Source: Kiritimatiellaceae bacterium
Lineage (GTDB): Bacteria > Verrucomicrobiota > Kiritimatiellia > Kiritimatiellales > Tichowtungiaceae
Length of the DNA: 64,000 bases
Assembly (NCBI GenBank): GCA_013141415.1
Contig: JABFQY010000005.1
Span: forward strand, 186,001 to 250,000
Reading direction: 5' to 3'
Position numbers and translations under genes: made by a program. Shown piece after piece: positions 5,112 to 40,315 of this stretch. The notes below the pieces were generated by a model. It did not search any database and was not told where the DNA came from. It was given only the letters and a program-made list of their open reading frames with translations. The stretch's first letter is position 1. Each line of letters begins with the position of its first letter.

Positions 5112-7949
5112 CTAGTCGAAGGTCACAAGGTAGTAGCAGGTTTTGTCGCGTGCGCCGTCAATTTCGAACGAACCTTTTTCAACCGGAAGAGAGCCGCTGG
5201 CGGTCACTCCGTCGTGGTCGAGCAGTTGAACTTTGGACGGGGTTCTCTTCATGGTAATGCGCGCCTTGACCGGCTCCATGAGAATGGGGGCCTTTCCCGG
5301 AGCCGACAGAATGCTGTCTGAGGCGATTTGCATTCCGGTATTGCGTGCACGGGCAATCGCCGTGACCAGCACCTTACCTGCCGTCGCGATGTCTTTATCT
5401 TTTTCCTGCGCGGACACGTAGATAGCTCCGTACCGTGATTCCGGTTGAATGGTTACATCGCCCAGCACGCACGTTTCACCCTTGGCGAAGCCAACCACGG
5501 CCTTGGTTGCCGCCGCGTTGATGGTGAAGTAGCCGTCCATTTTGTTCTGGCCTTCTTTCCAGAAAAGCTGGCCGTTGGCGGAGCGGATTCCTCCGTTCTG
5601 ACGGTACGGGGTCAAATCAAACGTCGGGGTGTCCATATAGGTGTCCGTAAAATTGACAACACAGCGACCGACGGCCAGTGCCTGTGCGGGGATTTTCTTT
5701 CCAGTAAAAGTTTTTTCGTCGCCGTCCTGCACGACCTCGTCGTCGTAGTCGAGAAGTCCCTTCTGTAACGAGGGGATGCTGACATTGCGGACGATGGTGA
5801 GATCCGATTTTTTTACGTCACCGCGCAGAACCTGTCGCGATACGGCGGGGAAAACGCCCAGAATCTGAGGAATCGCAACTTCCCAGCTTTGCGGTTTCCC
5901 GGAAAGAGCGCTGCTGAATGTGCCCTTGTCCCCGTTTTCAAATATAAAGGAAATATCCCAGTCCTGCAGGCCCATTCCGTAGGCGCCGATCAGAGCCGGG
6001 CCTTCAACGCGCCATTCATTCGGCGACACATGAACCCATTCTGAAAGCATAAAGGGTCGGTTGCCAACCTGCTGCAGACCGGCGCTAAGCATTCCGCCGC
6101 CGCTGGCAGCGAGCATGGAGGCGTTGTTAATTTTTACGACTTTGCCTCTGCTCTTGTCTCCGCCGAAGTAATTGTGGCGGTCGATCATGCCGACCAGCGT
6201 GTCGGAGTGCAGGTTATAATAATGGCTGAACCCGCGTCCGGCCTGCCAGTTTGAAGCCAGAATTTCACCCTCATATCCGGTGTCGCGGATGGCCTTCACA
6301 AAGCGGTTGTAAAAATCGTTCTGCAACTCGTAAAGGAACAACATTGTGTCCAGCAGACGAACCTTCACGGGTTTTTGCTGTCCGTCGAGCTGGGCAGGCT
6401 CGTAGAACCATGGGTTGCCGAAAGGAACGATGGTCTTGTCCTTCCAGCTTTCGCCTTCAATTCCGAAACTCGCGAACCAGTTCAGTGCATTTGGACCCCA
6501 CGCCTCAATCAGTTTTTCTTCGCTGCCGTAGCGTTTTTGCAGCCAGTCGCAGAACGCTTCGCTGGTCCGTTTGCGCAAGGTCGGGGATTTCTTAAGGACA
6601 CTCGCTGTGCCGAAAAACAAAATACTTTCCTCGTTGAGCAGCTCAATCACTGCCACTGATGGTTCTGTTGCGTAGGTGTTGCCGGTATACGGGTTTTTGT
6701 GTTTCAACAAATTCACGACCTGCTCGATATGCAAATCCTGCAACTCACGTGAGAGAAAGGCGCTTCCTCCGCCCGACTTAACGTCGCCTTTTTTTGTTGT
6801 GTCGAACTCGTCAATGTATGGAATGCGGGCGCAGTCCGCCGGACTGGGGTTTATACTTCCGAAGTTGGCTGAGAATTCGACGTAAATTCCCTGTTCTTTG
6901 AACTTGGCGACCAGATAGTCCATGGCATCCAGTCCCGCCGGGTCAAATATTACACATGAATCCTTTGACCGGATTCCCTGCCAGCCGTCGCCGTCGGCAT
7001 ATTTATGGAGGCGTACGGCGTTGATGCCGTATTTGGCATAAAAAGCAGCGCGGCGTTCCGCTGTCGCCTTGTCCGGTTTGCAATCTGCGTAGCAATTGTT
7101 TATTCCCCAGAGCTTAATCGGTTTACCGTTGTACATCATGTTCTCGCCGTCGCGGGTGATGCGCCCATGCCGGCCGGCCGGTTTTTCAAGCCAGTCCTGC
7201 AATCCAATCTCTCCGGCATTCGGCGTGCTGGTTGGGTTGAAAACGTACCAGCTTGAAATCCCCGAATTGTCAGGGACATCTTCCATCGCCGCGTAAAAGG
7301 TTAAAGCGGCTGGCATGGTGACTGTCACCGTTTGAGCGACCGGCTTTGCCAGCTCGTTTTTCACCAGAACAATCCGCGCCAGTCCATCCGTATCCATGTC
7401 GCTGGCCGGATCCAGAGATAGTTTGGTTTGCAGGCCGGCGGCATCAATCAGTATGCATTCCTTTACTTGTTTGCCGAGGCTGCCTTTGCCGAGCTTGTCC
7501 GACTTCAGCTCGATGACGGACTCGGTTCCTTCGGCGGTCTTTATCAGGATTTTTCCTCCCGTGAAGGGTTGCGCGTCCAGTTTGATTCCTAGAACCATCA
7601 CACTCAGTTTTGTGCTTTTTTCGGCGGATAGATCATACTCAAGCTTTAACTGGTTTGGGCCGACCTGGGTTGCCTTTGCCGTAACAGCCACTTTGGTGCC
7701 ATCAATGGATCCGGTGTTGCGGGCAACCATGGAAGTCTGTTCCTTAGCAGCAGTGCCTTTTAGCGGGAGCCAACGCCAGCCCGGCCCCCAGCTGAACAGG
7801 GTAAGATCCATATAATTTTTCTGATTTTTCAGGAAGGTGATGGATTGTCCGCTCATCGGCAGTGCAGTAAACGGCGTCTCGGGCTCGGCCGCGAATGAGG
7901 TTATGCTCAGAACAGCGAACAGTACGGCTTGCAGCAGAATCTTCTTCAT
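5112..7949 (-). CDS. Secreted glycoside hydrolase, clan GH-A-like
   Basis: A 945-residue protein with a signal peptide (MKKILLQ, hydrophobic core, SFA-A cleavage near residue 20). After a beta-rich N-terminal domain of about 260 residues comes a TIM-barrel hydrolase region starting near KLWGINN (residue 280). The acid/base candidate is the LLNE motif (N439-E440), with the candidate nucleophile in MLSEW (E637), the spacing expected of retaining clan A glycosidases such as GH5. A C-terminal beta domain follows. It probably hydrolyses a polysaccharide outside the cytoplasm; substrate and exact GH family cannot be read from the sequence. AAGGAG precedes the ATG. It lies just upstream of recO in the same direction, probably by chance. 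Confidence 0.85.
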   Translation of the reverse strand: MKKILLQAVLFAVLSITSFAAEPETPFTALPMSGQSITFLKNQKNYMDLTLFSWGPGWRWLPLKGTAAKEQTSMVARNTGSIDGTKVAVTAKATQVGPNQLKLEYDLSAEKSTKLSVMVLGIKLDAQPFTGGKILIKTAEGTESVIELKSDKLGKGSLGKQVKECILIDAAGLQTKLSLDPASDMDTDGLARIVLVKNELAKPVAQTVTVTMPAALTFYAAMEDVPDNSGISSWYVFNPTSTPNAGEIGLQDWLEKPAGRHGRITRDGENMMYNGKPIKLWGINNCYADCKPDKATAERRAAFYAKYGINAVRLHKYADGDGWQGIRSKDSCVIFDPAGLDAMDYLVAKFKEQGIYVEFSANFGSINPSPADCARIPYIDEFDTTKKGDVKSGGGSAFLSRELQDLHIEQVVNLLKHKNPYTGNTYATEPSVAVIELLNEESILFFGTASVLKKSPTLRKRTSEAFCDWLQKRYGSEEKLIEAWGPNALNWFASFGIEGESWKDKTIVPFGNPWFYEPAQLDGQQKPVKVRLLDTMLFLYELQNDFYNRFVKAIRDTGYEGEILASNWQAGRGFSHYYNLHSDTLVGMIDRHNYFGGDKSRGKVVKINNASMLAASGGGMLSAGLQQVGNRPFMLSEWVHVSPNEWRVEGPALIGAYGMGLQDWDISFIFENGDKGTFSSALSGKPQSWEVAIPQILGVFPAVSRQVLRGDVKKSDLTIVRNVSIPSLQKGLLDYDDEVVQDGDEKTFTGKKIPAQALAVGRCVVNFTDTYMDTPTFDLTPYRQNGGIRSANGQLFWKEGQNKMDGYFTINAAATKAVVGFAKGETCVLGDVTIQPESRYGAIYVSAQEKDKDIATAGKVLVTAIARARNTGMQIASDSILSAPGKAPILMEPVKARITMKRTPSKVQLLDHDGVTASGSLPVEKGSFEIDGARDKTCYYLVTFD

Positions 7950-8075
7950 CAGAACTCCTTGCTATGAGGTTTATGCAAAAGCAGGGCATCATGGTCTTTT
8001 CGTCTTTCCAGCGGCAAGCCTATAGCCAGATGAATTTTGGTGTACATTTGCGGCGAATGATGGTTTTTTCTGCGC

Positions 8076-9095
8076 ATGCTACTTAACAAAACCATACGGC
8101 TGTTTCTGGACAGCATCGGACGGCGGGAAGAATACGAATTTTATCTCAACAAATTCCAGTCTGCCGGTACCGACTGCTTTGCTTTGCTTGTTCCCGATCT
8201 CGAAAGTCTGGAGCAGGGCGCCGAGGCGCTGGCCTTCGATCTAAAGTTTCTCCTCAAGCTGGGGCTTCGGCCCGCCGTCGTACTCTGCGGTCCCGATGCT
8301 GGCACCAAATGGAATCTGCTCAAAGACAGTTCTCTTTTTGAACTGACGGAGTTTCCAAGCATTGGAAAACGAAAAGCCGGCATTCCTGTTTTCGTTGAAG
8401 AAAACGTTCAGCCTTTGGAAAGCTTACTGCAAAAAGTTCCAGCCATTGGGAAACGGGTACACTTCATCCGTGCCGGCGGCGGGCTGAACACGGAATATTA
8501 TTACGTCCAGAAACCGGACGCAGAACTTCCACCGGAAGACAAAGCCATGGCCGACGCCGCGGCCGCATTGCTCGAAGCGCGGCCCGGAACCCATATTTCT
8601 GTCACTTCGCCGATCAACCTGCTCAAGGAAATCTTCACCGTCAAAGGGGCGGGCACCGTCTTTCGGCGCGGCTCAACCGTTCTTTCCGGCAAAGCAGATA
8701 AGGAACGGTTGCTGGCTTTGCTCGAAGAAAGCTTCGGTAAAAAGCCGAAAGAAGGCGTTCTCTCGGACGTTACACAGATTTATTTTGAAGAAAATTATCG
8801 CGGTGCAGCATTGCTCGAACAGCAGTCGGCGGGGCTCTATCTCTCAAAATTCGCCGTTGGCTCCGAAGCACGTGGCGAAGGGCTCGCGCAGGAGTTGTGG
8901 GAGGAAGTCTGTAAAAAGCACTCGGCTTTCTTCTGGCGGTCGCGCAAAGGCAACCCGATCAACCAGTGGTATGACCGGCACGCCGATGGTCGGCATACAG
9001 CCGGTGACTGGGTCGTTTTCTGGCGCGGCATGGACGCCGCCGCCATTCCCGCCCTGATCGCCTTCTGCGTTTCCCGCCCAGCTGATTTTGTCTGA
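8076..9095 (+). CDS. N-acetylglutamate synthase-like acetyltransferase
   Basis: A 339-residue protein. The C-terminal third carries the GNAT-type NAT (DUF619) signature of the NAGS/NAGK group: YLSKFAVGSEARGEGLAQ, then FWRSRKGNPINQWYDRHADG and a terminal VVFWRG. The N-terminal part has an amino-acid-kinase-like alternation (FALLVPDLESL, PAVVLCGP) but no complete kinase motif, as expected of synthase-only enzymes whose kinase domain is degenerate. It would acetylate glutamate with acetyl-CoA, the first arginine biosynthesis step. No other arg genes are nearby. The start has no strong ribosome binding site, so it could shift slightly. Transcribed away from the glycoside hydrolase gene. Confidence 0.78.
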   Translation: MLLNKTIRLFLDSIGRREEYEFYLNKFQSAGTDCFALLVPDLESLEQGAEALAFDLKFLLKLGLRPAVVLCGPDAGTKWNLLKDSSLFELTEFPSIGKRKAGIPVFVEENVQPLESLLQKVPAIGKRVHFIRAGGGLNTEYYYVQKPDAELPPEDKAMADAAAALLEARPGTHISVTSPINLLKEIFTVKGAGTVFRRGSTVLSGKADKERLLALLEESFGKKPKEGVLSDVTQIYFEENYRGAALLEQQSAGLYLSKFAVGSEARGEGLAQELWEEVCKKHSAFFWRSRKGNPINQWYDRHADGRHTAGDWVVFWRGMDAAAIPALIAFCVSRPADFV

Positions 9096-9252: not shown

Positions 9253-12200
9253 GTGAAAAAAGTGAAGATCAGGTTCATTCTAAACCTCTTTGTCTGGCTT
9301 CTTTGTCTGGCGACAAGCCCGGCCGCTCCGGCGGATTTGGCGCAAACGCTTCTCACGATGGCCGGTGGCAGTACGAACGGCCTTTGCGAAGTGCCGCGTT
9401 GCGGCGCTGGTAGCTTCCTGTCCAGTCTGGCCGCGAACAGCGGTTTTACCATTCACGCCATGGATTCCAGCACCGGTAATGTGGCGGCGGCGCGCACGGC
9501 GGTTGGCAATCTGCTCGGCAAAACAATTTATGTTGAACAAGGCTCTCCAACCGCAATTCCGCTGGCATCCGAATCGGCAGACCTTCTGGTGCTGACGGAT
9601 TTGACGAGTTCGGATATGACCGGGTCGTTGACGAATGAAATTCTGCGTGTGATTTGTCCCGGCGTTGGTCGGGCGATTCTGGGTGGTTCCTCCGGGTCGC
9701 TGACGGTGTCGAATTTGACGGCATGGGTACAGAGTTTCGGTGTCGGCGGCACGGTTCAGACCAATGCATACGGCATCTGGGGAATCGTGCGGCGCGGGGC
9801 GTTGCCGGGCGCAGATGACTGGACACATCCGTACCACGGGCCGGATATGAATCCAGCCTCACAGGACACGGCGTTCACAATGCCTTCAGCACTTTCCTGG
9901 TTGTCGAAGCCGTTTCAAGCCAACACACGCGCCACCGGCAGTCGGGTGTCGGCCGATGGGCGGATTTTCTATGCAACCAGCGGACCCAACACAGGTCGCA
10001 ACGGTGACACCAACGAGTGGTCGTTGCAGGCGTTTAACCTCTATAATGGCCAGTTGCTGTGGGAGCGCTCCCTAAACACCAATACATGGTCTCACCGGAA
10101 CATAACCGTAGTTCAAGGCGGGAAACTGTATGTTTTGCAGGACACGAATATATTGGTGCTGGATGCGGCGACCGGAGCAGATCTTCCATCCATCACGTTT
10201 ACCAACACGCCTGCTCAGATGAAATGGCTTGGCATTGTCAGCAATACGCTGGTTACAATGTCTGGGCCGATGGATGTTTCGCCGCAAAAAGCTTGGAGTT
10301 TTGAGCCCCAGCGCGATGCGTTGCAGCTGGGATATGGAACCTTGCTGCTGGCGTATGATCTGGCGACAGGACAGGAAAAATGGCGGCGGGACGAAGGCGC
10401 GCCGATTGACCACCGGACTCTCGGAATTCTCGGCGGCCGGATTTATTATGATGTGTTCGGTCAGCGCGTGATGTGCCGCGATTTATCGACCGGTAATGTG
10501 GTTTGGCAGAACAGCGACACCAATGTTCTTGCGCTGACGGTTGCAAAAAATGGTGCTGACTGGTGGGCCCCGCCTGGCGCGGCGTATCTTGAAGATCGCC
10601 CCAGTCTTCTGTGCTCGTCCAATGCGTTGTATTTCGGCCGCCCCGAAGGTTCAAATTTCGTGGCGCTGTCTCCGGTTGACGGGCATGTTCTGTGGTCAGT
10701 TGCGCGAGTCGGCGGGCGGGCCTTTAACTTCGTTCTCTGTGCGACGAATGTGCTGTATCTCGACGGCCTCACTGGTGCCGGAGGAGGAGGATTCCGCGAT
10801 CCGTTGACCGGAGTTGCGGGAGCCAATCCCACTGCAAACGGTTGCGGAGTGAACATCTCGACGCCGAACTATTTCGTTCCTCAGGCTGGTGGCGTCACCT
10901 ACAACATAAAGAAGATGCAGAAAATAAACACAGGGATAGATACCGTTTATCCGATGAAGAACGAGTGTTCGATGGGCACACTGGTGGCTGGCGGACGGTT
11001 GGTCGGACTGGCTAAAGCCTGTGAGTGTCCGGTCATCCGCGGCGGCGCCGGGCTGGGTAGTGGCCGGATGTACAATTCGCCAACCGGACAGTTGCAGGTT
11101 GCCCGCACCAACAGTGTAATTTCGTTCCCGACCGACAAGCGGGACTGGACAACGCACCGCGCCTCGGCGCGGCACGATGGCGCGTCTTCTGCCAGCGTGT
11201 CTCTTACGCTGACTAACCTGTGGCAGACCGCGCCGCGGTATCCGTCGCAAGTGTTTACCGATGCCCAGTTTCCGAAAACAACACAGCATTCTCTGACGAT
11301 TCCGCTCACGGCGGCCGGCCGGATTTTTATCGCCGGGTCGGACGGGCTGGTTCAGTGCCTGGATTCCGCCACCGGTGCAGAATTGTGGCGGTTCCAGACC
11401 GACGGTGCAGTGCTCGCTACTCCGACACTGGCCGATGGTAAGCTGTTTGTCGGCTCGGCAGACGGCTGGGTTTATACGCTGGAAGCCTATTCCGGCAAAC
11501 TGCTTTGGCGTTACCGGGTCGGCCCCGAAGACCGCAAGATTATGGTTTATGGTTATCTGCAAAGCAGCTGGCCGGTCAACAGTGGTGTTTATTACGAAAG
11601 CAACACCGTCTATGTTTCCGCCGCATTGCCTATGCAGCCGGGTGCTTATGTCTGCGCACTGAACGCGACCAGCGGTGCGTTGCTCTGGCGCAATCAGGAG
11701 ATGGGCCCCGGCTACAATGCAACCACCGGAATTTACACCAACAACGAGTATGTGCCGTCCGGATATATGACCCGCACCGGCGACCGGCTGTGGGCCAAGC
11801 GCTATCTCGACGCGGCGGCCGGAATAGCGTTCAACCTGACCAACGGTGTTAAGTACAGCAATAGCGATGTTGATATGACCGGTGCGACCGGTCACGGTGG
11901 ACGGGGCCGCGAGATCGGTGTGCTCAGCAATCGTTTCCTCATCGTCGGCGGACCGGAAGTGTATTTCGATAACGCAGAACGCGGCGGCAAAAACAAACTG
12001 ACATATTGGTTCACGGAATTGACCAACGGTGTACCGCGCAAGCCGGTCGTGGAAGTATTTGATTTCACCCTGACGATGCCAGCATGGAACGATGAACGGA
12101 TTTTGGTGGCGGGGTTTAGCACGAATGCGAACCGGCTGGAATGCTGGAGCGCCGGTGCTGCCATGGACTACTTTCATTCACTGATCGACGCCAACAGTAC

Positions 12201-36961: not shown

Positions 36962-37038
36962 CGGGGTGTGGCTCAGCCTGGTAGAGCGCTACGTTCGGGA
37001 CGTAGAAGTCGCAAGTTCGAATCTTGTCACCCCGACCA
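36962..37038 (+). tRNA. tRNA-Pro (anticodon CGG)
   Basis: Acceptor CGGGGTG pairs with CACCCCG; the anticodon stem CTACG/CGTAG holds loop TTCGGGA, giving CGG at 34-36 (reads CCG, proline). The T loop TTCGAAT has a 5-bp stem and CCA is encoded at the end. Confidence 0.95.
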
Positions 37039-37059: not shown

Positions 37060-37437
37060 TTAAAGCGCGGCGATAGCGTCGATTTCGACGAGGACGTCTT
37101 TTGGAAGCCGGGCGACCTGCACGGTTGAACGGGCGGGCGGGGCGTCGGTGAAAGCTGAGCCATAGATGGCGTTCATGGCGGGAAAGTCGTTCATGTCTTT
37201 CAGAAAGACGGTGGTTTTTACGACGTTTTGAAAATCCGCGCCGCCAGCCGTCAGGACAGCTTTCAGATTCGCCAGCACCTGCCGCGTCTGCGCTTCGATG
37301 CCGTCAGGAATCGCGCCGCCGGACGGATTCAGAGGAATCTGGCCGGAGCAGTAAAGCGTGTCGCCGACTTTAACGGCCTGAGAGTATGGGCCGACCGGTG
37401 AGGGCGCAGTTTCTGTGCGGATGATTTCTCTTTTCAT
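37060..37437 (-). CDS. ridA: RidA family reactive imine deaminase
   Basis: A 125-residue protein with the full RidA (YjgF/UK114) pattern: APSPVGPYSQAVKVGD near residue 11, YCSGQIPLNP, the Arg in PPARSTVQVARLP that binds the carboxylate, and VEIDAIA at the end. RidA homotrimers hydrolyse 2-aminoacrylate and other enamine or imine intermediates produced by pyridoxal phosphate enzymes. The start has CGTTCC, not a strong ribosome binding site, just upstream. Convergent with the tRNA gene. Confidence 0.95.
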   Translation of the reverse strand: MKREIIRTETAPSPVGPYSQAVKVGDTLYCSGQIPLNPSGGAIPDGIEAQTRQVLANLKAVLTAGGADFQNVVKTTVFLKDMNDFPAMNAIYGSAFTDAPPARSTVQVARLPKDVLVEIDAIAAL

Positions 37438-37544
37438 GCGTTCCTTTTACTGCGCTTTGCATGGTTCGTCGAGCCGTTTGACTAAAGCCGACCGTTCTGG
37501 TTTCTTTTATCGACATATGCCTGTGCGAGGTGTATTGTGGATGC

Positions 37545-37808
37545 ATGAAAACGACAAAGAAGACAAGTGCACTGGTAGCACTGATGCTGGTTGCGTCGGC
37601 CCCTGTTTATGCCGATGGCAAACCGCAAGCGACCTGTCCGGTTATGGCGGGGCAGGCGGTTAATCCGAAACTGTATGTGGATTCAGACGGTTACCGCATC
37701 TACGTCTGTTGCGGAGGATGTGTTAAAGCGGTTAAAGCCGATCCGGCGAAATACATCGCGAAGATGAAAGCCGCGGGCGTTGAACTCGAAAAAACGCCTC
37801 AGAAGTAA
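37545..37808 (+). CDS. Secreted YHS/TRASH-like metal-binding protein
   Basis: An 87-residue protein with a signal peptide (TTKKTSALVALMLVASAPVYA). The mature part has CPVMAGQAVNPKLYVDSDG, then YVCCGGCVKAVKADPAKYIA, the Cys arrangement CP-x2-Q...VCCxxC...P-x-KY of YHS/TRASH heavy-metal domains, often found beside copper or other metal efflux systems. It is the first gene of a run of three small secreted Cys-rich proteins, and probably binds metal outside the cytoplasm. The start at 37545 is preferred over an ATG five codons earlier because it begins the signal peptide cleanly. Confidence 0.82.
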   Translation: MKTTKKTSALVALMLVASAPVYADGKPQATCPVMAGQAVNPKLYVDSDGYRIYVCCGGCVKAVKADPAKYIAKMKAAGVELEKTPQK

Positions 37809-37820
37809 AAGACATTTCCG

Positions 37821-38165
37821 ATGAAAAGATGGGGTTCAGTGGTTCTCGCTCTGGCTTTACTGGTCGCGCCTCCGTTTGTAAAGGCGGCGCCGGATAGGCA
37901 TAAGGTCGCGGTTTCTGAAACGGCGTGCTGTTGCTGTTCGCCGGGGAAGGCTCATATTGAGAGTGCGGCTTGTCAGTGTGACGGCTGTGCTCAAAAAAAT
38001 GCGCAGCATTGCGGCTGCGTACAGGCGACGCCGACACTGTCTGCATTGCCAGCTGAGTCCAATTTTTATTTTATACCGTCTCTTTCCGGACGGATTCTCA
38101 TTCAGAACACGCTGTGGGCTGAACGGACTGACCCGCCGCTTCTGCGTCCGCCGATTGTCTCCTGA
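37821..38165 (+). CDS. Secreted Cys-rich protein of unknown function
   Basis: A 114-residue protein with a signal peptide (WGSVVLALALLVAPPFVKA). The mature N-terminal part is dense in Cys (TACCCCSPG, ACQCDGCAQ, HCGCVQ), about nine Cys within 35 residues, and the C-terminal half is Cys-free with a DPPLLRPPIVS end. Metal binding is likely from context: it lies 12 bp after the YHS-like gene and 47 bp before the metallothionein-like gene. No family was recognised and no ribosome binding site stands out, so translation may be coupled to the preceding gene. Confidence 0.65.
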   Translation: MKRWGSVVLALALLVAPPFVKAAPDRHKVAVSETACCCCSPGKAHIESAACQCDGCAQKNAQHCGCVQATPTLSALPAESNFYFIPSLSGRILIQNTLWAERTDPPLLRPPIVS

Positions 38166-38212
38166 TTCAACTATTGGTGTTTCAAAGCGTTGAAATCTAA
38201 AAAGGAGAAATT

Positions 38213-38374
38213 ATGAAAACGATTCTGATGACAGCATTAGTCGCGATGACCCTGATGGGCACCGCGCTGGCCGCACCGGCGCAGGAAAAATGCAAAGACT
38301 GCTGTAAGTGTGAAGCGTGCAAATGCGCGCCTTGCGCCTGCTGCAAATGCGAAACCTGCAAATGTGCAAAATAA
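38213..38374 (+). CDS. Metallothionein-like secreted Cys-rich peptide
   Basis: A 53-residue peptide. Residues 1-21 are a signal peptide (ILMTALVAMTLMGTALA). The mature 32 residues contain 12 Cys in metallothionein-like clusters: CKDCCKCEACKC, then CACCKCETCKC, with CxC and CxxC pairs separated by Lys. The only plausible role is metal binding, probably a soft metal such as Cu, Zn or Cd, outside the cytoplasm. AAGGAG lies 7 bp before the ATG. A stem-loop follows the stop and a GC-rich terminator lies 25 bp beyond. Not similar to cytoplasmic bacterial SmtA/BmtA by any clear motif. Confidence 0.75.
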   Translation: MKTILMTALVAMTLMGTALAAPAQEKCKDCCKCEACKCAPCACCKCETCKCAK

Positions 38375-38390: not shown

Positions 38391-38398
38391 TAAAAGGA

Positions 38399-38425
38399 GC
38401 GCCCTGGGCAACCGGGGCGCTTTTT
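38399..38425 (+). terminator. Rho-independent terminator of the Cys-rich cluster
   Basis: GCGCCC and GGGCGC enclose a 10-nt loop and are followed by TTTTTATTT. Confidence 0.85.
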
Positions 38426-38677: not shown

Positions 38678-40315
38678 ATGATTAAAAAAGATGTGTCGAA
38701 TGGCGCCGAGGTGCAGCCGGAAGATCAGGCCTCTCGCGGTGAGATCATAATTTACGGTATGGGAACGGCGGCCAACATGATGGCTGGCAAGACCTATGCA
38801 CTTCTAACCCCCCTGATGGTTATTACGCTCGGTATGAGCCCGATTTTGGCTGGAATGATTCTCGCTATCAAAACACTTTGGGATGCTTTTACCGACCCGG
38901 TCATGGCTACCATCACCGACAATGCGAATACACGGTGGGGTCGGCGGAGACCCTTTATTTTGGTCGGTGGAGTTTCCCTTGCACTGGTTTGTCTGGGGAC
39001 GTGGTTGTTTATTCCGTCTTCTCCAAGAACTCCTAATGTGGAACCGACGGCTGTGGTGAAACCGGCTGCGCCGATCGCGGATAGTGCTGTTGTTTCGGCA
39101 GATAAGGCCGGAGAAACTGTTTCTGTCGTCCCTGTTGCTCCGATTATAGATAAGAAAAAAAACATACGTCCGCCGCGCAAATCGTTCATGGCTTCTATGC
39201 GGGACGGAATTGCGGAACTCGAAAAAACTTCCAAGGAAAAGAAGCACCTGTTCATCTATCTGACGATTGCATTAATGCTTATGGCTACTGCGCAAACCGT
39301 TTTTTCCGTGCCGTATTATGCTCTCGGGATTGAGCTTTCACCTTCCTATCACGGGCGAACCCGTGTTGTTGCGTTCCGGTCTATTTTCGACAAACTGATC
39401 GGTTTCCTGGGGCCATGGTTTCTTCCCTTCTGTCTCGGGTCGTTTTTCGTGGACGGCATTGAAGGGATCAAGTGGCTCACCATTATTCTCGCCAGCTTTG
39501 CTATTCCGCTGGTCATCCTGTCGACCTGCTTCACCAAAGAGCGGACGAAAGTGGATCGTGCACGAAAAAAAGTGAACATGTTCGCGTCTATCGCGGCAAC
39601 GGCCAAAAACCGGCACTTTTTAAAAATCGCCTCGTTGTATGTCGTTATTCAAGTGGCAATCGGGTTGTTTGCGCAACTGGGACTTTTTATTAATATCTAC
39701 TATGTGTTCGGTGGCGACAAACAGGCCGGAGCGATTATGAGCGGCAAAGTGGGATCTTTTGCCGCATTGCTAGGTATTCCTGCAATTCCGCTGATTACCT
39801 GGATATGCAAGAAGTACCAGAAGCACAACGCTCTGCGGCTGGCGATTCTGATGACGTCTGCCGGATGCGTTTTGAACTGGTTCTGCCTGAATCCGGCATA
39901 TCCGGAGTTGCAGTATATCCTGCCGTTCTTTTTCTCGCTGGGCATTTCCAGTACCTACACGGTACTCGGTACAATGATGGCGGATGTGACCGATATAGAT
40001 GAACTAAACACCGGCAGTCGTCGCGAAGGAATGTTCGGCGCGGTCATGGCCTGGATGATGAAAGCGATTGCATCCATTCAGGCGCTTGCCGCTGGCGCTG
40101 TACTGGTAGCCACCGGATTTAATATTGAACTGGGTGTAAATCAGCTTCCGGGTGTAATACTAAATATGCGCCTGCTGTTCAGTTTTGCGCCAGCCATACT
40201 CCTGCTGTTTTCTCTGTTTATTCTCTACCGCTACCCGCTGACGAAAAAGCGCATGGAAGAGATCAAAGAAATCCTTGCAGAACGTAAACGCGTCGCCGCG
40301 GCTGCGCAGGGATAA
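38678..40315 (+). CDS. MFS sugar:cation symporter (GPH family)
   Basis: A 545-residue membrane protein with about 12 hydrophobic helices and the GPH-family marks: GMGTAANMMAGKTYAL near the start, DAFTDPVMATITDNANTRWGRRRPFI after helix 2 and, in the second half, ADVTDIDELNTGSRREGMFG. The family imports glycosides, pentosides or hexuronides with sodium or protons. A long polar loop of about 90 residues rich in Pro/Ala/Val separates helices 4 and 5, more than is usual. GGAG lies 9 bp before the ATG at 38678, which is preferred over earlier ATGs. A bidirectional terminator follows. Confidence 0.88.
   Translation: MIKKDVSNGAEVQPEDQASRGEIIIYGMGTAANMMAGKTYALLTPLMVITLGMSPILAGMILAIKTLWDAFTDPVMATITDNANTRWGRRRPFILVGGVSLALVCLGTWLFIPSSPRTPNVEPTAVVKPAAPIADSAVVSADKAGETVSVVPVAPIIDKKKNIRPPRKSFMASMRDGIAELEKTSKEKKHLFIYLTIALMLMATAQTVFSVPYYALGIELSPSYHGRTRVVAFRSIFDKLIGFLGPWFLPFCLGSFFVDGIEGIKWLTIILASFAIPLVILSTCFTKERTKVDRARKKVNMFASIAATAKNRHFLKIASLYVVIQVAIGLFAQLGLFINIYYVFGGDKQAGAIMSGKVGSFAALLGIPAIPLITWICKKYQKHNALRLAILMTSAGCVLNWFCLNPAYPELQYILPFFFSLGISSTYTVLGTMMADVTDIDELNTGSRREGMFGAVMAWMMKAIASIQALAAGAVLVATGFNIELGVNQLPGVILNMRLLFSFAPAILLLFSLFILYRYPLTKKRMEEIKEILAERKRVAAAAQG

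Follow-up and report, generated by a model that had tools for sequence, protein, structure and literature searches.

Metallothioneins are usually presented as cytosolic proteins that are induced transcriptionally. In bacteria, the SmtA/BmtA (PF02069) and mycobacterial MymT families are small, Cys-dense and cytosolic, with presumed thiolate clusters, and we know of no member of these families with two CxCCxCxxCxC repeats. The Csp copper storage proteins, for which an exported class exists, are likewise bacterial Cys-rich copper sinks, but as described they are four-helix bundles, unrelated in sequence and size to the peptide reported here. Also close to the present locus are two small leader proteins that control copper genes.

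CutF is the leader of cutFOG in Rhodobacter capsulatus. The Shine-Dalgarno sequence of the following gene is hidden in a stem-loop and becomes free when copper extends a stalling-like state (PMC9973294, PMC8456105). CutF was first taken for a chaperone (PMC8456105). The rules published for CutF-type proteins are a length of <150 aa, a signal peptide, a Pro-Pro within the last 15 residues and a downstream gene on the same strand, and those CutF-like proteins that have Cys motifs are mostly followed by copper genes (PMC9973294). CruR of Bordetella pertussis, a DUF2946 protein, carries CxxC and RAPP motifs that are 45 residues apart; in this system, the arrest is relieved by copper and the operon is switched off through Rho termination, and the intergenic region is 162 nt long (PMC9426467). 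Toeprinting of CruR placed the two Pro codons in the P and A sites (PMC12992588).

CutF-like control is known for copper genes, and metallothioneins are known from bacteria. We found no report combining the two in the open-access literature, and the word "metallothionein" does not occur in the main text of PMC9973294. We analysed a window (the whole stretch of DNA under study, 64,000 nucleotides from a Kiritimatiellaceae bacterium) in which a gene encoding a secreted metallothionein-like peptide had been predicted. The following features of the locus, all on the + strand, are used below; the parts of the proposed system span about 550 bp.

37510..37538, +, weak sigma-70-like promoter match before the YHS-like gene (9 of 12 positions; 2 such matches found in the region, 1.1 expected)
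37545..37808, +, YHS-like exported protein, first gene of the cluster (alignment of 13 relatives, structure model, domain match, loci)
37821..38165, +, small exported Cys-rich protein ending LLRPPIVS, candidate CutF-type copper-sensing leader (conserved ends, Cys cluster, CutF rules)
38148..38153, +, Pro-Pro codons of the leader RPP, candidate arrest site (position, conservation)
38158..38208, +, predicted mRNA hairpin in which the last codons and stop of the leader pair with the peptide Shine-Dalgarno (folding and controls)
38213..38374, +, secreted metallothionein-like peptide gene (translation, homologs, Cys register, dN/dS)
38394..38425, +, terminator-like hairpin with a T run, directly 3' of the peptide gene (kept in both sister species)

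The cysteine-rich peptide and its relatives

The translation of 38213-38374, MKTILMTALVAMTLMGTALAAPAQEKCKDCCKCEACKCAPCACCKCETCKCAK*, is 53 aa long and contains 12 Cys, every one of them 3' of a signal-peptide-like start. By eye, cleavage is predicted after the motif ALA (position 20), which gives a mature peptide of 33 aa with 12 Cys, 7 Lys, 6 Ala, 3 Glu, 2 Pro, 1 Gln, 1 Asp and 1 Thr. The 12 Cys in 32 residues of the original prediction were right within one residue (12 in 33), and its description of a peptide made almost only of Cys, Lys and a few small residues leaves the acidic residues (3 Glu, 1 Asp) unmentioned. Two 6-Cys repeats form the mature peptide, C-x2-CC-x-C-x2-C-x-C-x2 and then C-x-CC-x-C-x2-C-x-C. 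As a composition rule for a metallothionein in the functional sense, we used a small size, about one third of Cys in CxC/CC motifs and few or no aromatic residues; the peptide has Cys at 12 of its 33 mature residues, CxC and CC motifs and no aromatic residue at all. A Shine-Dalgarno sequence (AAGGAG, 38202-38207) begins 11 nt 5' of the ATG. Among the 492 ORFs of at least 40 aa in the window, only that of the peptide has 12 Cys in 32 residues. When 40 first-order random windows were generated, none of their 28,487 ORFs reached this density.

Homologs, which the original prediction had left to be looked for in related genomes, were found in two sister species with 94% and 83% identity and 12/12 Cys kept. 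They are carried by contigs CAIKWE010000032.1 (L007, genome G447) and CAIKGD010000040.1 (L008, genome G003) of uncultured Verrucomicrobia MAGs. The dN/dS ratios of the peptide gene for the three species pairs (0.126, 0.079 and 0.088), i.e. 0.08-0.13 over three species, point to purifying selection. In view of this conservation and of the terminator, an antisense or chance ORF was rejected. The window thus encodes a real, conserved Cys-rich peptide, predicted to be secreted and of a metal-binding type. The label "secreted metallothionein-like" is upheld in part, by a real gene, homologs, an invariant Cys register and a copper-operon context, all of which are read from sequence.

A register of 11 Cys, CC-x-C-x2-C-x-C-x2-C-x-CC-x-C-x2-C-x-C, is common to eight genomes from five families of the phylum. 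Only profile matches verified for exact Cys spacing enter these counts. A profile search of the class gave 12 hits in 345 genomes, with the register in 7 genomes; the five hits without it (G430, G503, G098, G555 and G559) were dropped. The eighth genome (G163) belongs to another class and was detected in a 387-genome sample of the phylum, from which three of six hits (G081, G190 and G166) were dropped as lacking the register. No further register besides that of G163 was found in 246 genomes of its class, where one of the two hits (G257) proved to be another kind of Cys-rich peptide. We also tried, and rejected, a search with a degenerate DNA pattern (11 Cys codons, 3 mismatches allowed): it matched 78 of 387 genomes and was swamped by CTG/CAG repeats (antisense poly-Gln). 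A regex match in L040 is the same repeat artefact and was left out of the eight-genome count. A scan of genome contigs found the register in the two sister species only, the remaining genome searches being centred on this phylum. Within the genus, the peptide is present in 3 of 14 genomes. In one register genome (G399), the copy is an ORF without a signal peptide and without a leader upstream.

No Pfam or NCBIfam family matches the peptide. In contrast with SmtA/BmtA and MymT, it has a signal peptide, and none of the eight register members matched a Pfam metallothionein model with E up to 10; this search returned three chance families, none of them metallothionein, and the HMMER filters may hide weak matches. 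A phmmer search against PDB sequences found none, and tblastn against 72,556 plasmids with E up to 10 returned nothing, although the BLAST low-complexity filter may mask matches of such a query. Small secreted Cys-rich peptides with other spacings occur in other families of the phylum, with 8 Cys in G555 (L058, 2730-2906, -) and 7 Cys in G257 (L089, 1501-1701, +).

The upstream gene and the hairpin before the peptide gene

In the gene 37821-38165, a signal-like start, CCC(C), CD[GS]C and the end LLRPPI[VFY]S are kept across the three species, and much else varies. Its dN/dS of 0.33-0.48 corresponds to a faster evolution than that of the peptide gene. The three proteins are 114, 115 and 117 aa long, within the <150 aa of the CutF rules, and their Pro-Pro lies 4-6 residues from the C-terminus, within the last 15. 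By eye, the start has clear n- and h-regions and a cleavage site between VKA and A. The mature part contains a putative Cys metal motif in all three species, in the form of CCC(C) and CD[GS]C, and the peptide gene follows on the same strand after 40-47 nt, inside the 1,000 nt allowed. The gene thus shows most of the published CutF-type features. The spacing from CxxC to RPP is exactly 52 residues in 3/3 species. We found no match to any Pfam or NCBIfam model, DUF2946 (PF11162) included, with E up to 1 for Pfam. Instead of the C-terminal RAPP of CruR, the sequence is LLRPPI in 3/3 species.

Like CutF, this protein is small and predicted to be exported, with a Cys motif, a C-terminal Pro-Pro, a position directly before a putative copper gene and a stem-loop predicted to hide the Shine-Dalgarno sequence (PMC9973294). 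The metal motif and the end motif are 45 residues apart in CutF and 52 in the window leader (PMC9973294). As far as CutF is described there, it has CxxxC and ends in PEPEGPPPRL, whereas the window leader has CxxC, ends in LLRPPI.S and comes from another phylum; the two are likened by features and not by sequence homology. The gene downstream of CutF encodes a multicopper oxidase, that of the window leader the metallothionein-like peptide. CruR shares with the window leader a predicted export, a CxxC and a C-terminal Pro-Pro at a nearly fixed spacing (45 vs. 52 residues) and a position at the head of an operon that is, or here would be, copper-regulated, but differs from it by RAPP vs. L-R-P-P, by the DUF2946 domain and by an intergenic region of 162 nt vs. 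40-47 nt (PMC9426467). More generally, L-R-P-P departs from the characterised R-A/G-P-P order. Judged by these features, 37821-38165 is most likely a CutF/CruR-type regulatory leader and not a cargo protein.

The peptide is mostly accompanied by a leader. In 7/8 register genomes, the gene directly 5' of it is a small Cys-containing ORF on the same strand with a C-terminal Pro-Pro, and six of these seven ORFs have an [RP]PPI end. The ends are RPPIVS in the window, RPPIFS in L007, RPPIYSCI in G003, PPPIR in G448, PPPIAEG in G020, PPPIGPLV in G401 (cut by the contig end) and HPPRC in G163. As a baseline, Pro-Pro was found in the last 15 residues of 13/139 ORFs of at least 150 aa from 13 sequences, and [RP]PPI in 0/139, a rough comparison as these ORFs are longer than the leaders. 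A tRNA-Pro gene (anticodon CGG; 36962-37038, +) lies just 5' of the cluster and reads CCG, the codon of both RPP prolines. This is probably a coincidence. The tRNA gene was rejected as a part of the system, there being no sign of it before the cluster in the L007 and L012 ORF maps.

In both the window and L007, the last codons of the leader, TCTCCTGATTCAAC (stop included), are predicted to base-pair with the region around the Shine-Dalgarno sequence of the peptide gene, and a stem-loop hiding the Shine-Dalgarno sequence is predicted in all three species. In the window, the predicted probability for this sequence to be unpaired is 0.17 in the free state, with 0.01 for its GGAG core. It rises to 0.70 when folding begins 16 nt 3' of the start of the first RPP proline codon, roughly the expected edge of a stalled ribosome. 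The corresponding values, free vs. modelled stall, are 0.17 vs. 0.64 in L007 and 0.11 vs. 0.54 in G003, where the start codon of the peptide is still paired in the modelled stalled state. For comparison, the Shine-Dalgarno sequences of other genes of the window are unpaired with a median of 0.43 and a minimum of 0.14 (14 recognisable among 39 ORFs).

Two controls were applied to this hairpin. After synonymous recoding of the last 25 codons of the leader, an equally low core value was obtained in 9/300 sequences for the window and 8/300 for L007; the G003 hairpin fails this control, with 98/300 equally low. When the intergenic region was shuffled and the leader codons were kept, the value was equally low in 88, 81 and 101 of 300 sequences (window, L007 and G003, respectively), so that the signal is carried by the leader's own codons and not by the spacer. 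The hairpin geometry is therefore statistically supported in two of three species, and since the window and L007 are close relatives, their results are not independent. No such hairpin was found in the other families: the Shine-Dalgarno sequence is open in G401, and G163 and G448 form other structures.

Gene order and exchange with efflux genes

The gene order in the window is rid (37060-37437, -), YHS-like gene, leader, peptide gene, terminator and an unrelated MFS-type sugar transporter. The peptide had been described as the third of three small secreted Cys-rich genes in a row, and small secreted Cys-containing genes do start at 37545, 37821 and 38213. The order holds, but the row does not consist of three equivalent metal-binding proteins, as it comprises a YHS-like protein, a candidate regulatory leader and the peptide. 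The structure model of the YHS-like protein (pLDDT 77) shows a beta-hairpin followed by helices, with candidate C...CCxxC ligands. Its best domain match is that of phenol hydroxylase (E 0.003 by sequence, E 0.6 by fold), with no significant match in the fold comparison. PF04945 (YHS/TRASH) gave no hit for the window protein, and 25.7 bits, below the 30.3 cut-off, for its relative in G190. An Rfam search of the window found two tRNAs only and no riboswitch at the cluster. The RidA-type deaminase gene, divergent from the cluster, also borders the csoR operon in G003 and at one G440 locus (L075), and marks the ancestral position of the cluster. Past the terminator, the transporter gene (38681-40315, +) encodes an MFS_2/GPH-family sugar symporter that does not belong to the cluster and whose profile match is broken into two parts by a long additional segment near residues 115-180.

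CsoR (PF02583) was detected at 9 loci in 8 of the 14 genomes of the genus, and the YHS-like gene is the next gene after csoR at 9/9 loci. The gene that follows is TolC-like at 7/9 loci, the leader with the peptide gene at one (G003), and at one (G445; L071, 180-686, -) an ORF that we take to be DUF302-like. The latter, in place of efflux genes, is a third occupant of the slot. The sequence was followed further at three csoR loci: a CusB-like adaptor and CusA come next in L079 and L082, and L080 has CusA, the adaptor not being picked out in the ORF list. By profile, the efflux set of L079 consists of OEP, a CusB-like protein (HlyD_D23 + HMBD + YHS) and ACR_tran. Its CusA/CzcA scores 779.8 bits with TIGR00914 (cut-off 701.45), and its adaptor scores, among named adaptors, best with copper/silver CusB, below the cut-off.

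A CusA ortholog (at least 57% identity) is present in 6/14 genus genomes and in 0/3 of those with the peptide, some assemblies being incomplete; this absence is not unique to the peptide genomes, as 8/14 are without the ortholog. The window genome has only a CusA relative of 37% identity. CopA (TIGR01511) is above cut-off in 2/14 genus genomes, neither of which has the peptide. In G003, a CsoR-family repressor (PF02583, 101.7 bits) lies between rid and the YHS-like gene. Its candidate ligands are a Cys followed, 25 and 29 residues on, by a His and a Cys, a spacing known from Cu(I)-binding CsoR proteins. Among NCBIfam models, this repressor scores highest with copper-sensing RicR (88.5 bits, below the cut-off of 175), ahead of RcnR (40.2) and FrmR (36.1). 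PF02583 is absent from the window genome and from G447; transcriptional copper control in the window genome is therefore only putative.

In all three peptide species, leader and peptide gene follow the YHS-like gene instead of efflux genes. Compared with a CusCBA copper/silver efflux operon, the position, the YHS-like neighbour and, in one species, the CsoR-family repressor are the same, and the pump appears to be replaced by a leader and a binding-type peptide. The loci can be arranged in a series, csoR-YHS-cusCBA, csoR-YHS-leader-peptide (G003) and YHS-leader-peptide (window and G447), from which we infer the order of events. DsbA (PF01323) was found in 0/14 genus genomes vs. 8/14 control genomes in the same search, so an exported peptide with 12 thiols may stay reduced.

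A proposed copper response and its alternatives

The product of 38213-38374 would be a Sec-exported metallothionein, most likely holding Cu(I) in thiolate clusters outside the inner membrane, and would act as effector in a small operon responding to copper, at the position otherwise taken by a Cus-type efflux pump. The Cys cluster of the leader would sense copper during export, and copper would prolong a stall at the C-terminal Pro-Pro. The stalled ribosome would then cover the anti-Shine-Dalgarno arm (UCUCC) at the leader end, freeing the ribosome-binding site of the peptide. A copper metallothionein as effector, joined to CutF-type control by the leader, is our best explanation of these sequences, with a probability of about 0.55; copper as the metal, metal binding, export, stalling and the direction of the response are the parts of it that we infer. 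Taken by itself, the claim that the peptide is an exported metal-binding peptide of a copper response is quite probable, and copper appears to be its likeliest metal. The complete nascent-chain scenario is more tentative: a CutF-type leader with an (R/P)PPI end may read copper outside the membrane and thereby open the site at which ribosomes bind to the mRNA of a secreted metallothionein. The two genes would make up one movable module, which would have taken the place of the Cus pump in a csoR operon and, in the window species, would be the sole copper-responsive control left after the loss of csoR.

It is also conceivable, although rather unlikely, that the peptide is a secreted copper metallothionein to which 37821-38165 is merely translationally coupled, the hairpin being melted by finishing ribosomes without any metal-dependent arrest and the upstream protein being a periplasmic copper carrier. 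A hairpin across the stop codon would indeed couple the two genes without arrest, the upstream protein keeps its Cys cluster, and CutF itself was initially mistaken for a chaperone (PMC8456105). However, conservation is centred on the Cys cluster and on the extreme C-terminus LLRPPI.S, for which a carrier has no need, and ORFs ending in Pro-Pro lie upstream in 7/8 genomes, even where the remaining sequence is not recognisably alike.

The metal is a separate question, as Cys-only metallothioneins bind several d10 metals, which is established chemistry. The peptide could accordingly serve another soft metal (Zn, Cd, Ag or Hg) or be a general thiol buffer against oxidants. The CusA/CzcA models span several metals and the cluster of the window itself holds no exclusively copper-specific gene, both of which are compatible with this reading. 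We nevertheless consider it improbable, as the CsoR beside the G003 operon has a copper sensor as its closest match, copper/silver CusB (below cut-off) is the best match among named adaptors for that of the replaced pump, and the genes reported after CutF-like proteins with Cys motifs are mostly copper genes (PMC9973294). In being small, secreted, basic and rich in Cys, the peptide also resembles disulfide-rich bacteriocins or toxins that bind no metal. There would be little room for a disulfide fold, though, as almost no other residues separate the CC pairs and CxC motifs of the peptide. The lack of DsbA in the genus, the position in a copper operon and the absence of immunity or export genes nearby also argue against such a function, which is highly improbable; a toxin or bacteriocin was rejected, as no partner genes were seen.

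Under the preferred reading of a copper metallothionein controlled by a CutF-type leader, the sequences would represent an exported metallothionein-like family that is marked by a defined Cys register and linked to a leader gene of the copper-sensing-arrest type. If confirmed, this would be the first metallothionein under nascent-chain control found in the open-access literature, and a natural case of a metal pump exchanged for a metal sponge at one operon position. It would also extend CutF/CruR-type control to the Verrucomicrobia, a group absent from the main texts on CutF and CruR, where the string "Verrucomicrob-" does not occur.

Leader-like genes were also observed before other kinds of genes. 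Among 11 leader-like profile hits, seven were dropped as antisense or unconvincing (L062-L064 and L066-L069), and those in G000, G003, G447 and G408 were kept. In G408, a ninth genome, a CutF-like leader ending in SRPPIFV (L065, 1495-1839, -) precedes a lipoprotein-like gene with a CASLC motif; an FtsX-like permease is also found at this locus, which may represent a different target of the same kind of leader. In G190 (L011, about 5361-8371 and 10048-10332), a Cys-containing secreted leader-like ORF that ends in VRLPVLFCSFLT, with no Pro-Pro, precedes a multicopper oxidase gene and one of two YHS-like genes, the other being close by. This ORF possibly belongs to another class of metal leaders with a different end motif.
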